Part shown: one piece after another, positions 4,228-7,633 of the stretch | Layout: every line of letters begins with the position of its first letter | Numbering within the stretch: the first letter of the stretch is position 1 | Origin: a virus | Strand: one strand, 5' to 3' | DNA: 21,818 bases | IMG/VR virus record: IMGVR_UViG_3300027836_000544 | Span: 1 to 21,818 of that record | Program-made: the position numbers and the translations under genes | The notes under the pieces: generated by a model | Seen by the model: the letters and a program-made list of their open reading frames with translations, nothing else | What the model was told of the DNA's origin: nothing | The model's database searches: none

Positions 4228-4465
4228 TCCAATTAACACCATTGCTATACAACAATTTATACAACAGGTAAAAATTGCCGATGCTAGTCAACAAAAAGAA
4301 ATCCGTATGGATATAAAAAATGCCAAGGCTCTTAGCTTTGCTCTTACAGAAGTGTTGGCAAAACTAACACAGGACTATGAGATTTTATTAAAAGAATTGC
4401 TCAAAGCCAGTGGTAATGACACCATTACAGTGGCCATGGACGGTGGCGGATTTTCAAACAAATAG
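4217..4465 (+). CDS. Small helical hypothetical protein (82 aa)
   Basis: The start codon lies 11 nt inside the end of the preceding gene. The product is almost entirely predicted helix: residues 5-25 are Gln/Ile-rich, and residues 38-63 form an amphipathic helix (LSFALTEVLAKL), ending in a glycine-rich tail (MDGGGFSNK). This looks like a small dimerising or accessory protein, but no family is recognised and no function is assigned. It is the last gene before the hairpin and late-promoter-like element at 4468-4503. Confidence 0.75.
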   Translation: MSSDPINTIAIQQFIQQVKIADASQQKEIRMDIKNAKALSFALTEVLAKLTQDYEILLKELLKASGNDTITVAMDGGGFSNK

Positions 4466-4467
4466 AG

Positions 4468-4475
4468 GATAAATA
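4468..4475 (+). promoter_or_regulatory. Candidate T4-type late promoter box (GATAAATA)
   Basis: The sequence GATAAATA matches the T4 late consensus TATAAATA at seven of eight positions and lies in the short gap between two genes. Using T4 spacing, transcription would start near base 4481, inside the hairpin described next, so that the left arm would be left out of late transcripts. This is inferred from consensus and position; no transcript data are available. Confidence 0.5.
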
Positions 4476-4503
4476 TATGCGTAGTTATCGAGGACGCATA
4501 TAT
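4473..4503 (+). promoter_or_regulatory. RBS-sequestering inverted repeat before the 4502 gene
   Basis: A perfect 10-bp inverted repeat (arms 4473-4482 and 4494-4503) encloses an 11-nt loop. The loop holds most of the Shine-Dalgarno GAGGA (4490-4494), and the right arm contains the first two bases of the start codon at 4502. RNA reading through from upstream should fold and hinder initiation, while RNA starting at the embedded late box could not form the stem. T4 genes such as e and soc use this arrangement. Confidence 0.7.
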
Positions 4504-4786
4504 GTCAAGGCCCAAGCCAAACGTGCTTTTAGAGCATATTAATAAAAAAACTTATAAGAGTGAGCAGATCTTAGAAGCCGATGCCATTTGGGCTGTATTT
4601 TATAAGGGCGAGCCTTTTAACTTAAAAAGCTCAAACAGTCTTACCAGTTATCCAGGTCCTAAATATAAAAAAGTAAGTTTTTCAAATCCGGGTCACGCCC
4701 ACAATCTTGCTAAAAAACTAAATTTAACTTTTGGCACACAGGATTTTCAAGTTGTTAAACTTACCCAAGGTGAAATTATAAAATGA
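4502..4786 (+). CDS. Hypothetical phage protein (94 aa), hairpin-controlled start
   Basis: The ATG at 4502 lies seven bases after GAGGA and sits at the right arm of a perfect hairpin, so translation is probably regulated. The protein is basic and small, with a segment GPKYKKVSFSNPGHAHNLAKKLN (contiguous here only as residues of one helix-strand unit around positions 57-77) that looks well conserved; I recall similar unnamed proteins in T4-like cyanophages. Residues 20-40 form predicted strands (IWAVFYKG). No catalytic motif is evident and function is unknown. The end overlaps the next gene by an ATGA junction. Confidence 0.8.
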   Translation: MSRPKPNVLLEHINKKTYKSEQILEADAIWAVFYKGEPFNLKSSNSLTSYPGPKYKKVSFSNPGHAHNLAKKLNLTFGTQDFQVVKLTQGEIIK

Positions 4787-5172
4787 TAAGCAAAGAAACA
4801 TACACTATTATGTTTCTAAAAGAATGGGGCAAAAGTACAGATGCTGCCAATCTAAAATTATATACTAGAAATTGGTGGCAAAATAATAGATCCAAAGAGT
4901 CCGGCGGACTACGCTTAACCGACGAAGGTTATGAATTTTTGGTTGGAGAATTGCATCTTAAAGAGTACGAGGTTCCATTTACCGAACCAATTGAACTAAG
5001 TCCACAAACTATAATCTTTTTGGATAGATATATCGATTGCCCATATTATCTTACAAACAATAGTATTACAGTATTTTCTGAGCGCAAGAGTTTTGAACTG
5101 TACATGTTTTCAGACGATATCCGAAAATTTGGAATTATCAAAGCCCTTAATAATTTAAAACAAGAAGAATAA
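4783..5172 (+). CDS. Hypothetical phage protein (129 aa)
   Basis: The start is in an ATGA overlap with the preceding gene. The first half is predicted helical with a Trp-rich segment (YTRNWWQNN) followed by GGLRLTDEGYEFL, which resembles a small winged-helix or wHTH-like fold. The second half contains PFTEPIELSPQTI and strands leading to a C-terminal helix. I cannot name a family; a role in binding nucleic acid or protein is only a guess from the Trp/Arg-rich region. It is the last gene before the strong promoter at 5193-5221, and no terminator with a U-tract is visible between. Confidence 0.78.
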   Translation: MISKETYTIMFLKEWGKSTDAANLKLYTRNWWQNNRSKESGGLRLTDEGYEFLVGELHLKEYEVPFTEPIELSPQTIIFLDRYIDCPYYLTNNSITVFSERKSFELYMFSDDIRKFGIIKALNNLKQEE

Positions 5173-5192: not shown

Positions 5193-5221
5193 TTGACAAA
5201 GTCTAAGTATTGTCATATAAT
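5193..5221 (+). promoter_or_regulatory. Perfect-consensus sigma70 promoter
   Basis: TTGACA (5193-5198) and TATAAT (5216-5221) are separated by exactly 17 nt, a perfect match to the bacterial housekeeping-sigma consensus. It lies in a 92-nt non-coding gap 44 nt upstream of the AAA+ gene, so host RNA polymerase should transcribe this gene early. Initiation would fall near 5228. Confidence 0.85.
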
Positions 5222-5229
5222 ACTTAGAC
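5201..5229 (+). repeat. Operator-like 10-bp inverted repeat overlapping the -10 box
   Basis: Perfect arms GTCTAAGTAT (5201-5210) and ATACTTAGAC (5220-5229) flank a 9-nt centre. The repeat covers the promoter spacer, the end of the -10 box and the likely start site, the usual position for a repressor operator. There is no following U-tract, so it is not a typical terminator. The binding protein, if any, is unknown. Confidence 0.65.
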
Positions 5230-5264: not shown

Positions 5265-6368
5265 ATGAGCGAAATCATTTCTCGTACAGTTGGCCCAAAA
5301 GGTGCCATGAAAGGTCTACGCAAAGCCTTTAAAAACAAGCGTCCATTGTTCCTGTGGGGTCCTCCGGGCATTGGTAAATCAGACATTATCAAACAACTAG
5401 GTGCAGAACTTGACGCCTATGTAATTGACGTTCGTTTGAGTCTTTGGGAACCTACAGACATCAAAGGTATCCCATATTTTGATAGTAATACTAGCAAAAT
5501 GGTTTGGGCACCTCCTAGCGAATTGCCAGATGAAGAATTGGCAAAAAAACATAAAAACATTGTCTTGTTTTTAGATGAAATGAACTCGGCGGCTCCGAGT
5601 GTACAGGCAGCGGCTTATCAATTAGTTTTGAACCGTCGTGTTGGTACTTACAAACTTCCCGATAATGTTGTATTGGTTGCGGCAGGCAATCGTGAAACTG
5701 ACAAGGGTGTAACTTATCGTATGCCTGCACCGTTGGCCAATCGTTTTGTTCACTTGGAAATGCAAGTTGACTTTGACGATTGGGCTATGTGGGCCACTGA
5801 CAATCGTATCCATAAGGATGTAGTTGGATTCTTAACCTTCTCTAAAAAGGACTTGTACGACTTTGATCCTAAGTCTGGATCACGTGCATTTGCTACACCT
5901 CGTAGTTGGTCGTTTGTAAGTGAATTGCTCATGGATGACGACTGCGAAGATGATACATTAGCTGATTTGATTGCTGGTTCAGTTGGTGAAGGTTTAGCTA
6001 TTAAGTTTATGGCACACCGTAAAGTAGCAAGCAAAATGCCTAATCCTACAGACATCTTGAATGGCAAAATTAAAGAGATGAAATCCAAAGAGATCTCAGC
6101 TCAATATAGTTTAGTAACTAGTTTGTGTTACGAACTCAAAGATGCCGCTGATAAAAAAGCCAAAGATTGGAACAGCCAAGTTAATAACTTTTTCACATTC
6201 ATGATGAATAACTTCGAAACAGAGTTAGTTGTTATGGGTACTAAGTTATCGCTTACTCAATATAAACTGCCATTGGATCCAGACGAAATTGCATGTTTCG
6301 ACGAGTTTCATGGTAAATTTGGTAAGTACATTTCTGCCGCAACTGACAAAGACGAGAAACGTAAATAA
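5265..6368 (+). CDS. MoxR-like AAA+ ATPase
   Basis: The 367-residue product has an AAA+ core: Walker A GPPGIGKS (residues 32-39), Walker B VLFLDEMN with Asp104/Glu105, sensor-1 Asn142 in AAGN, and a likely arginine finger at Arg160 in LANRF. The insert after Walker A (LWEPTDIKGIP) and the pattern QAAAYQLVLNRR are typical of the MoxR/AAA_5 group. MoxR ATPases work with VWA-domain partners as chaperone-like machines that insert metal ions or remodel protein complexes; the next gene encodes exactly such a partner. The ATG at 5265 follows AGGAA (5256-5260) and a perfect sigma70 promoter. The C-terminal 130 residues are mostly helical with a basic tail. The substrate in phage infection is unknown. 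Confidence 0.9.
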   Translation: MSEIISRTVGPKGAMKGLRKAFKNKRPLFLWGPPGIGKSDIIKQLGAELDAYVIDVRLSLWEPTDIKGIPYFDSNTSKMVWAPPSELPDEELAKKHKNIVLFLDEMNSAAPSVQAAAYQLVLNRRVGTYKLPDNVVLVAAGNRETDKGVTYRMPAPLANRFVHLEMQVDFDDWAMWATDNRIHKDVVGFLTFSKKDLYDFDPKSGSRAFATPRSWSFVSELLMDDDCEDDTLADLIAGSVGEGLAIKFMAHRKVASKMPNPTDILNGKIKEMKSKEISAQYSLVTSLCYELKDAADKKAKDWNSQVNNFFTFMMNNFETELVVMGTKLSLTQYKLPLDPDEIACFDEFHGKFGKYISAATDKDEKRK

Positions 6369-6384
6369 TATGATTTAGTATCAT

Positions 6385-6413
6385 TTGACACCTCCTTCGG
6401 GAGGTGTTATAAT
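6385..6413 (+). promoter_or_regulatory. Perfect-consensus sigma70 promoter before the VWA gene
   Basis: TTGACA (6385-6390), a 17-nt spacer and TATAAT (6408-6413) form a second perfect promoter, 29 nt upstream of the VWA gene's ATG and 16 nt after the AAA+ gene's stop. Its spacer is almost entirely occupied by the hairpin annotated next. Confidence 0.82.
6388..6407 (+). terminator. CUUCGG-capped hairpin, possible terminator or mRNA stabiliser
   Basis: The arms ACACCTCC (6388-6395) and GGAGGTGT (6400-6407) pair perfectly over 8 bp around a TTCG loop closed by C-G, the unusually stable cUUCGg tetraloop that is common in T4 intercistronic regions. It is followed by TATAATATAT, which is AU-rich but not a classical U-tract, so termination of the upstream AAA+ transcript may be partial. 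It could instead protect the 3' end of that mRNA. Confidence 0.6.
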
Positions 6414-6442: not shown

Positions 6443-7633
6443 ATGTCACACGTAGATCCGGTTGTTGATAAGATTATTGTAGCAAGAGTAGGACTGTTGT
6501 TACGTCATCCATTTTTTGGAAATATGGCTACCCGATTAAAAATTCAAGACGGCAGTGATTGGTGCTCTACAGCGGCCACTGATGGACGCCACATGTTTTA
6601 CAATCGAGAATTTTTTGAAAAACTAACTCCAAAAGAAGTTGAGTTTGTACTAGCACACGAAATTCTACATAATGTATTCGATCATATGAATCGAAACGAA
6701 GGCCGTAACAGACGCATCTGGAATGCCGCTGTTGACTACACTGTTAACGGCCAATTGATTCGCGACCGTATTGGTGACCAACCTAAAGGTATTGATATCT
6801 TTCATGATCCTAAACACTATGGGAAGCCTGCAGAACAAATCTACGACGAATTATTTGAAAAGTACGACGAAGAAGAATTGGCTGCATTAGGCCAATTACT
6901 TGACGAACATTTAGATAACGAGGGTGACGGCAAAAATGGAAATGGACCTCCTCAGTATTCTAAAGAAGAATTAAAACAAATCCGCGACGAAATTCGTGAA
7001 GCCACTATCCAAGCGGCCAATGCGGCAGGTGCGGGTAATGTACCTGCCAATATTCAACGAATGATCAAGGAACTTACAGAGCCTAAGATGAATTGGCGTG
7101 AAATTTTGCGCCAACAAATACAAAGCACTATCAAGAATGACTACACTTTTATGCGCCCGAACCGTAAGGGCTGGCACATGAACGCTATTTTGCCTGGTAC
7201 TAACTTTGACGAAACTATTGATATCTGTATTGGTATTGATATGAGCGGTAGTATTAGCGATAGCCAAGCAAAAGATTTTATCGGTGAAATCAAAGGTATT
7301 ATGGACCAATATCAAGACTACAAAATTAAACTGTGGTGTTTTGATACGCAGGTGTATAATGAAGCAGATTTTGACGGAACCGGCGGTGACGACATTATGG
7401 AGTATGAAGTTATTGGCGGCGGCGGAACTGAATTCGATGTCAACTGGAGTTACATGAAAGAACATGATATTAACCCTAAAAAGTTTATCATGTTCACAGA
7501 TGGTTATCCATGGGGTAGCTGGGGTGATGAAAACTACTGCGATACGGTATTCATTATTCACGGAAACAACAGTATTGTACCACCTTGGGGCAATTACGCA
7601 TATTATGAACAAGACGGTGCAACTAGAAACTGA
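6443..7633 (+). CDS. Metallopeptidase-like plus VWA domain protein (DUF2201-type), MoxR partner
   Basis: The 396-residue product begins with a putative metallopeptidase domain containing HEILH (His72, Glu73, His76), the zinc-binding HExxH pattern, followed by NVFDH. A central acidic and glycine-rich linker (about residues 155-175) leads through a helical region to a C-terminal VWA-like domain whose metal-ion-dependent adhesion site is intact: DMSGS with Asp266, Ser268 and Ser270, Thr329 in GGGGTEFD, and Asp353 in FTDGYPWG. This two-domain layout corresponds to the DUF2201_N plus VWA-like family found next to MoxR ATPases. The start follows AGGAG (6433-6437). The pair should act together as an ATP-driven remodelling or metal-insertion complex, but whether the peptidase site is active and what the substrate is are unknown. 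The last 29 nt overlap the next gene. Confidence 0.9.
   Translation: MSHVDPVVDKIIVARVGLLLRHPFFGNMATRLKIQDGSDWCSTAATDGRHMFYNREFFEKLTPKEVEFVLAHEILHNVFDHMNRNEGRNRRIWNAAVDYTVNGQLIRDRIGDQPKGIDIFHDPKHYGKPAEQIYDELFEKYDEEELAALGQLLDEHLDNEGDGKNGNGPPQYSKEELKQIRDEIREATIQAANAAGAGNVPANIQRMIKELTEPKMNWREILRQQIQSTIKNDYTFMRPNRKGWHMNAILPGTNFDETIDICIGIDMSGSISDSQAKDFIGEIKGIMDQYQDYKIKLWCFDTQVYNEADFDGTGGDDIMEYEVIGGGGTEFDVNWSYMKEHDINPKKFIMFTDGYPWGSWGDENYCDTVFIIHGNNSIVPPWGNYAYYEQDGATRN

Follow-up and report, generated by a model that had tools for sequence, protein, structure and literature searches.

A late-promoter and ribosome-site hairpin element, very probably a switch of the T4 lysozyme type, before a small gene shared by many jumbo phages

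To our knowledge, the T4 lysozyme-type switch, which pairs a late promoter with a hairpin at the ribosome site, has been described for a few genes of the T4 group. In the T4 genes e, soc, 49 and I-TevI a hairpin silences read-through RNA, and for e and I-TevI the late promoter yields a translated RNA without the 5′ arm (PMC3014915, PMC2988022). The wider set of soc, 49, I-TevI/II/III, segB and Aeh1 mobE comprises late genes carried on long early or middle transcripts, whose ribosome site is sequestered and whose late promoter trims the 5′ arm (PMC2988022, PMC3014915); the element described here resembles them in the computed sequestration of the ribosome site and in the predicted trimming, and would resemble them in its transcript if early RNA reads through it. 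It lies in a viral contig of 21.8 kb (the window, meaning the whole 21,818-nt stretch that was analyzed), and very probably represents the same e/soc/I-TevI type of switch, conserved across a large jumbo-phage group. The known examples are isolated occurrences, and many of these are homing endonucleases, whereas here a short phage gene appears to keep the switch across a large phage group while the arms vary.

Positions 4468–4504 of the plus strand read GATAAATATATGCGTAGTTATCGAGGACGCATATATG. They contain a perfect 10-bp stem, the left arm ATATATGCGT (4473–4482) being the exact reverse complement of the right arm ACGCATATAT (4494–4503). The 11-nt loop (4483–4493) carries the Shine-Dalgarno sequence GAGG at 4490–4493, and the right arm fills the spacer between Shine-Dalgarno and start codon together with the first two bases (A and U) of the ATG at 4502, which opens a 94-aa ORF. 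Folding of 4468–4510 yields −11.7 kcal/mol (z −3.7; 0/200 shuffles as good) and folding of 4461–4520 yields −15.0 kcal/mol (z −2.7; 1/200 shuffles as good), confirming the stem, the loop-borne Shine-Dalgarno and the start codon at its edge that had been proposed in the initial annotation. A T4-type late promoter box, GATAAATA (4468–4475, +), overlaps the left arm and matches TATAAATA at 7/8 positions. In T4 late promoters the box occupies −13 to −6, a geometry that places the predicted late +1 at 4481 (+) and leaves most of the left arm out of the predicted late RNA. Boxes matching TATAAATA with at most one mismatch number 43 in the window against 63 expected by shuffling. As the box is not enriched, the case must rest on relatives; the 7/8 match over the left arm, also noted previously, is real and draws its weight from conservation, NTAAATA being present in 155/157 relatives. 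Rfam returned no match.

Compared with T4 e, the locus has the same late box between or over arms that hide the Shine-Dalgarno, and the same computed signature of a closed read-through form and an open late form. The right arm of e contains the Shine-Dalgarno, whereas that of the window stands between Shine-Dalgarno and ATG, and here the box runs into the left arm. The e geometry is used by several relatives, e itself having the geometry of locus L236, described below. The window gene is unlike e, with no sign of lysis homology.

If the element works as these systems do, RNA reading through from upstream DNA-metabolism genes would carry both arms and fold into a hairpin whose loop holds the Shine-Dalgarno and whose stem takes in the spacer and the start codon edge. 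Ribosomes would be largely shut out, and the 94-aa protein would not be made early. Once a gp55-like sigma factor is active, GATAAATA would direct transcription from near 4481, giving a late RNA that lacks 8 of the 10 left-arm bases, would not form the fold and would be translated, probably including the overlapping 129-aa gene. In this scheme we infer the late start, the early read-through, the degree of repression and the reason why early expression would be avoided. Read-through is assumed because no strong early promoter was found 5′ of 4468 within the window.

The gene under the putative switch (4502–4786, +) belongs to a conserved phage family (MSRPKP...YPGPKYKK...SNPGHA) with no assigned function and a mean column identity of 75% (45 sequences). 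The protein has no Pfam, PHROG or PDB sequence match; its structure model is confident (pLDDT 93), and the predicted fold matches no solved structure and only viral proteins, all of them uncharacterized. The 129-aa gene (4783–5172, +) overlaps it by ATGA; the two would lie on one late transcript, and their translation may be coupled. Same-strand neighbors encode a 5′-exonuclease, a MoxR-like ATPase and a metallopeptidase. A perfect sigma-70 promoter, TTGACA-17-TATAAT (5193–5221, +), precedes the MoxR-like gene at 5265 and, by its sequence, marks the block as a presumptive host-polymerase, early-type one. A second perfect sigma-70 promoter (6385–6413, +), with TG ahead of its −10, precedes the metallopeptidase/VWA gene at 6443. 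The −10 box of the first lies within an inverted repeat, GTCTAAGTATT/AATACTTAGAC (promoter and repeat together within 5193–5229, +), a possible operator or RNA hairpin. The late function suggested earlier for the 94-aa gene thus holds as far as predicted late timing is concerned; what the protein does does not follow from it.

A search of viral contigs with the 94-aa protein returned at least 600 matching stretches, and the gene is also found in 15 sequenced-phage records (the PA5oct group, Atu_ph07, Phosso and SCTP-2) with genomes of 280–490 kb; a search with the SCTP-2 protein gave 0 loci. The distinct leaders analyzed (n = 157) derive from 80 + 80 + 11 loci and four named phages, and sample the family rather than exhausting it; most of the relatives come from metagenome contigs. 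NTAAATA lies at most 75 nt from the start codon in 155/157 distinct leaders, 123 of them with the form GATAAATA, the commonest before this gene. The window-type arrangement, in which GATAAATATATRCGTA precedes a complementary arm whose end is at the start codon, is common to most close relatives. The GATAAATATATRCGTA motif is essentially single-copy, before the 94-aa gene, in contigs of up to 236 kb, and a scan of the viral collection with this 16-mer found it almost only at that place. At L195:7007 (−) and L164:2515 (+) it precedes other genes that have a normal Shine-Dalgarno, without the right arm. The left-arm cassette GATAAATATATGCGTACATTA also stands, without the right arm, before the neighboring gene MTEIHAKP (L003:2194, L008:256, L009:1650, L019:1529, L020:2194), as if it had been copied there; other lineages have GATAAATACATACATTACT before the MTEIHAKP gene. 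In L214, L216, L238, L240, L258, L288, L293 and L296 the box sits nearly at the start codon, and a late mRNA begun at the predicted position would have little or no leader.

Comparison of the arms among relatives, the alignment check that had been called for, revealed compensatory change. A complementary arm is present in 129/133 distinct window-type elements. The one freely varying pair, given as left–right, is G-C in 86, A-U in 35, G-U in 8 and A-C in 0 elements. This count picked the best-pairing arm, and for that reason an alignment-free recount was made in which CGCAT or CGTAT was sought only within the 16 nt directly preceding the start. Leaders with G on the left have CGCAT in 76 cases, CGTAT in 6 and neither in 11; those with A have CGCAT in 0, CGTAT in 32 and neither in 5. 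The best tree, built from the coding sequence, implies about 19 changes of the left base. Well-supported branches provide six independent pairs, among which the right base follows the left in 5.3 on average and never opposes it. The covariation and the conservation together rule out a chance origin of hairpin and box.

The window-type sequence is missing from most of the more distant relatives, which carry other hairpins instead. In L236, ACTCCTACATTT and AAATGTAGGAGT flank CATAAATA, and the resulting 12-bp stem covers the Shine-Dalgarno; in L286, arms CGTAGTTT and AAACTACG flank GATAAATA. An upstream arm pairs through the Shine-Dalgarno and start codon in L057 and L209, and in L109 and L009 the right arm is within the coding region. 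In all six the left arm is 5′ of, or overlaps, the predicted late start. An apparent loss of the hairpin in L057, L070, L009, L109 and L146 proved wrong, as each has another arm, situated upstream of the box in L057, L070 and L146. PA5oct and SCTP-2 keep the box with no convincing hairpin; these leaders show that the translational (repression) half would be dispensable in some lineages. By contrast, a strong switch is predicted for the leader of Atu_ph07. In PA5oct the gene, EST35_0330, is still predicted to be late.

The two transcript forms were compared by the computed cost of opening the ribosome site (positions −14 to +3) in read-through RNA and in RNA starting 6 nt past the box, the energies being those of RNA alone, without ribosomes or co-transcriptional effects. 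Across 155 leaders the median costs are 9.4 kcal/mol for read-through RNA, 2.6 for late RNA and 5.8 with the upstream part shuffled. The read-through cost exceeds the median of a leader's own shuffles in 143/155 leaders and all 40 shuffles in 47; about a dozen of the 155 fold no better than shuffles. For the 75 leaders without window-type sequence, the leader's own upstream part costs 8.3 against 5.5 when it is swapped from relatives, with a p value of 1e-8 that overstates the evidence, related sequences not being independent. The swap test is not informative in G-class window-type leaders, because G pairs with U as well. The same calculation for T4 gene e, as a positive control, gives 17 kcal/mol for read-through, 1.9–4.3 for late and about 7–8 for shuffled RNA. 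In 120 other genes behind ATAAATA in the same phages the costs are 4.1 (read-through), 2.7 (late) and 4.5 (shuffled), ruling out that box genes or AT-rich leaders show the effect in general. The folding of both forms that was suggested at the outset agrees with the proposal: the predicted late RNA loses the computed structure.

A gp55-like late sigma factor was found in 10/14 records searched, including both close relatives tested (G002 and G021); the carriers are G002, G021, G027, G028, G030, G032 and four named phages. For the window, a 21.8-kb contig, the factor is known from relatives. ATAAATA upstream of ORFs is strand-biased, with 39 occurrences against 4 of the reverse complement in G026 and 37 against 11 in PA5oct. 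Genes behind the box (n = 20, a modest sample) include seven with virion or lysis matches (tail tube, tail fibre, virion structural, endolysin) and no core replication gene, and non-box genes (n = 20) include four virion genes and several for DNA polymerase, clamp loader, UvsY and thymidylate synthase. For the jumbo phages CBB and GAP32, the available text of PMC5259590 independently predicts ATAAATA for late genes; they resemble the present group in the core box and in its predicted place before virion genes of a phage that encodes a gp55-like sigma factor, and differ in that this text describes no hairpin switch for them. The 94-aa gene was not found in CBB or GAP32 by tblastn. Two further hairpins were seen in G021 (the contig of L068). 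At 95647–95679, TATAAATA lies inside a hairpin of 10 perfect base pairs, AAAGTGTATA/TATACACTTT, ahead of an ORF that by eye resembles a GIY-YIG endonuclease and just after the gp55-like sigma gene, an arrangement reminiscent of T4 I-TevI regulation. Near 29700, GATAAATA stands between arms AAAGACTCCT/AGGAGTCTTT; their pairing would hide the Shine-Dalgarno of a short ORF of no assigned function, and this ORF is probably under a switch of the same kind.

The element could instead be an autogenous operator, at which a phage protein, perhaps the 94-aa protein itself, binds the hairpin or the nearly invariant GATAAATATATRCGTA DNA and represses translation or transcription, the promoter overlap being secondary. 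The left arm varies far less than pairing alone would require (C at −1 in 141/141, only G or A at −2), the motif's essentially single-copy occurrence before the 94-aa gene would suit an operator, and T4 I-TevI represses its own late promoter (PMC2988022). However, the hairpins of many relatives are unrelated in sequence and alike in geometry, which fits masking better than sequence-specific binding, and the predicted fold of the 94-aa protein matches no known nucleic-acid binder. We consider this explanation unlikely. Lower still stands the suggestion that the box simply drives late transcription and that the complementary sequence near the start codon is non-regulatory. The box is indeed kept more widely than any hairpin, as in PA5oct and SCTP-2, and L003, L008, L009, L019 and L020 have the left-arm cassette without the right arm before the neighbor gene, but the strict covariation of the arms, the different hairpins of other branches and the lack of a hairpin excess at other box genes make a promoter alone very improbable.

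Constitutive damping or thermosensing, in which a hairpin on all messages lowers or temperature-tunes translation and transcription starts elsewhere, would suit a stem in which AU pairs predominate and a loop that carries the Shine-Dalgarno. Yet in nearly all relatives the box lies over or between the arms, where the predicted late start would remove the left arm from the RNA. A box so placed would be superfluous to a simple damper, and we regard this reading as scarcely credible. The least probable alternative, with a likelihood close to nil, concerns an ATG at 4477 in the left arm that the initial annotation had missed. It is preceded 7 nt upstream by GAGG (4466–4469) and opens an overlapping 21-aa ORF (4477–4542, +), which might be a short leader peptide (M-R-X in many relatives) regulating the gene by its translation. 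About 60% of relatives with the left-arm ATG read ATG CGT NNN stop, but relatives with ATA for ATG have the same stop even more often (27/36), so the stop does not owe its retention to the ATG. No conservation is seen for the 21-aa frame, which is probably not a gene, and the leader peptide was rejected. The T4 e/soc-type switch originally suggested for this locus is supported by the covariation, the near-universal box, the replacement hairpins, the controls and the gp55-like factor, and nearly all the comparative tests that could be made point to it. The same-strand neighbors and the two sigma-70 promoters just downstream would suit such a switch as its genomic setting.

What is new here is an unusually widespread and well-supported case of a known type of switch, and the surprise is the turnover of the arms around a fixed logic. 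It is tempting to speculate that a switch rebuilt repeatedly with unrelated arms before one small protein reflects harm from its early synthesis; on that view the protein might be a late factor whose timing is critical, in a very large group of mostly uncultured jumbo phages, some lineages expressing it from leaderless late mRNAs, a picture we hold as possible and somewhat doubtful. Comparative evidence gives good support for T4 lysozyme-type logic in jumbo phages that are distant from T4. The collected leaders form a natural sequence set for learning what such a switch requires, and provide a means to recognize, from sequence alone, late genes hidden in early blocks. They also hint strongly that early synthesis of a widespread, unnamed protein has to be avoided.
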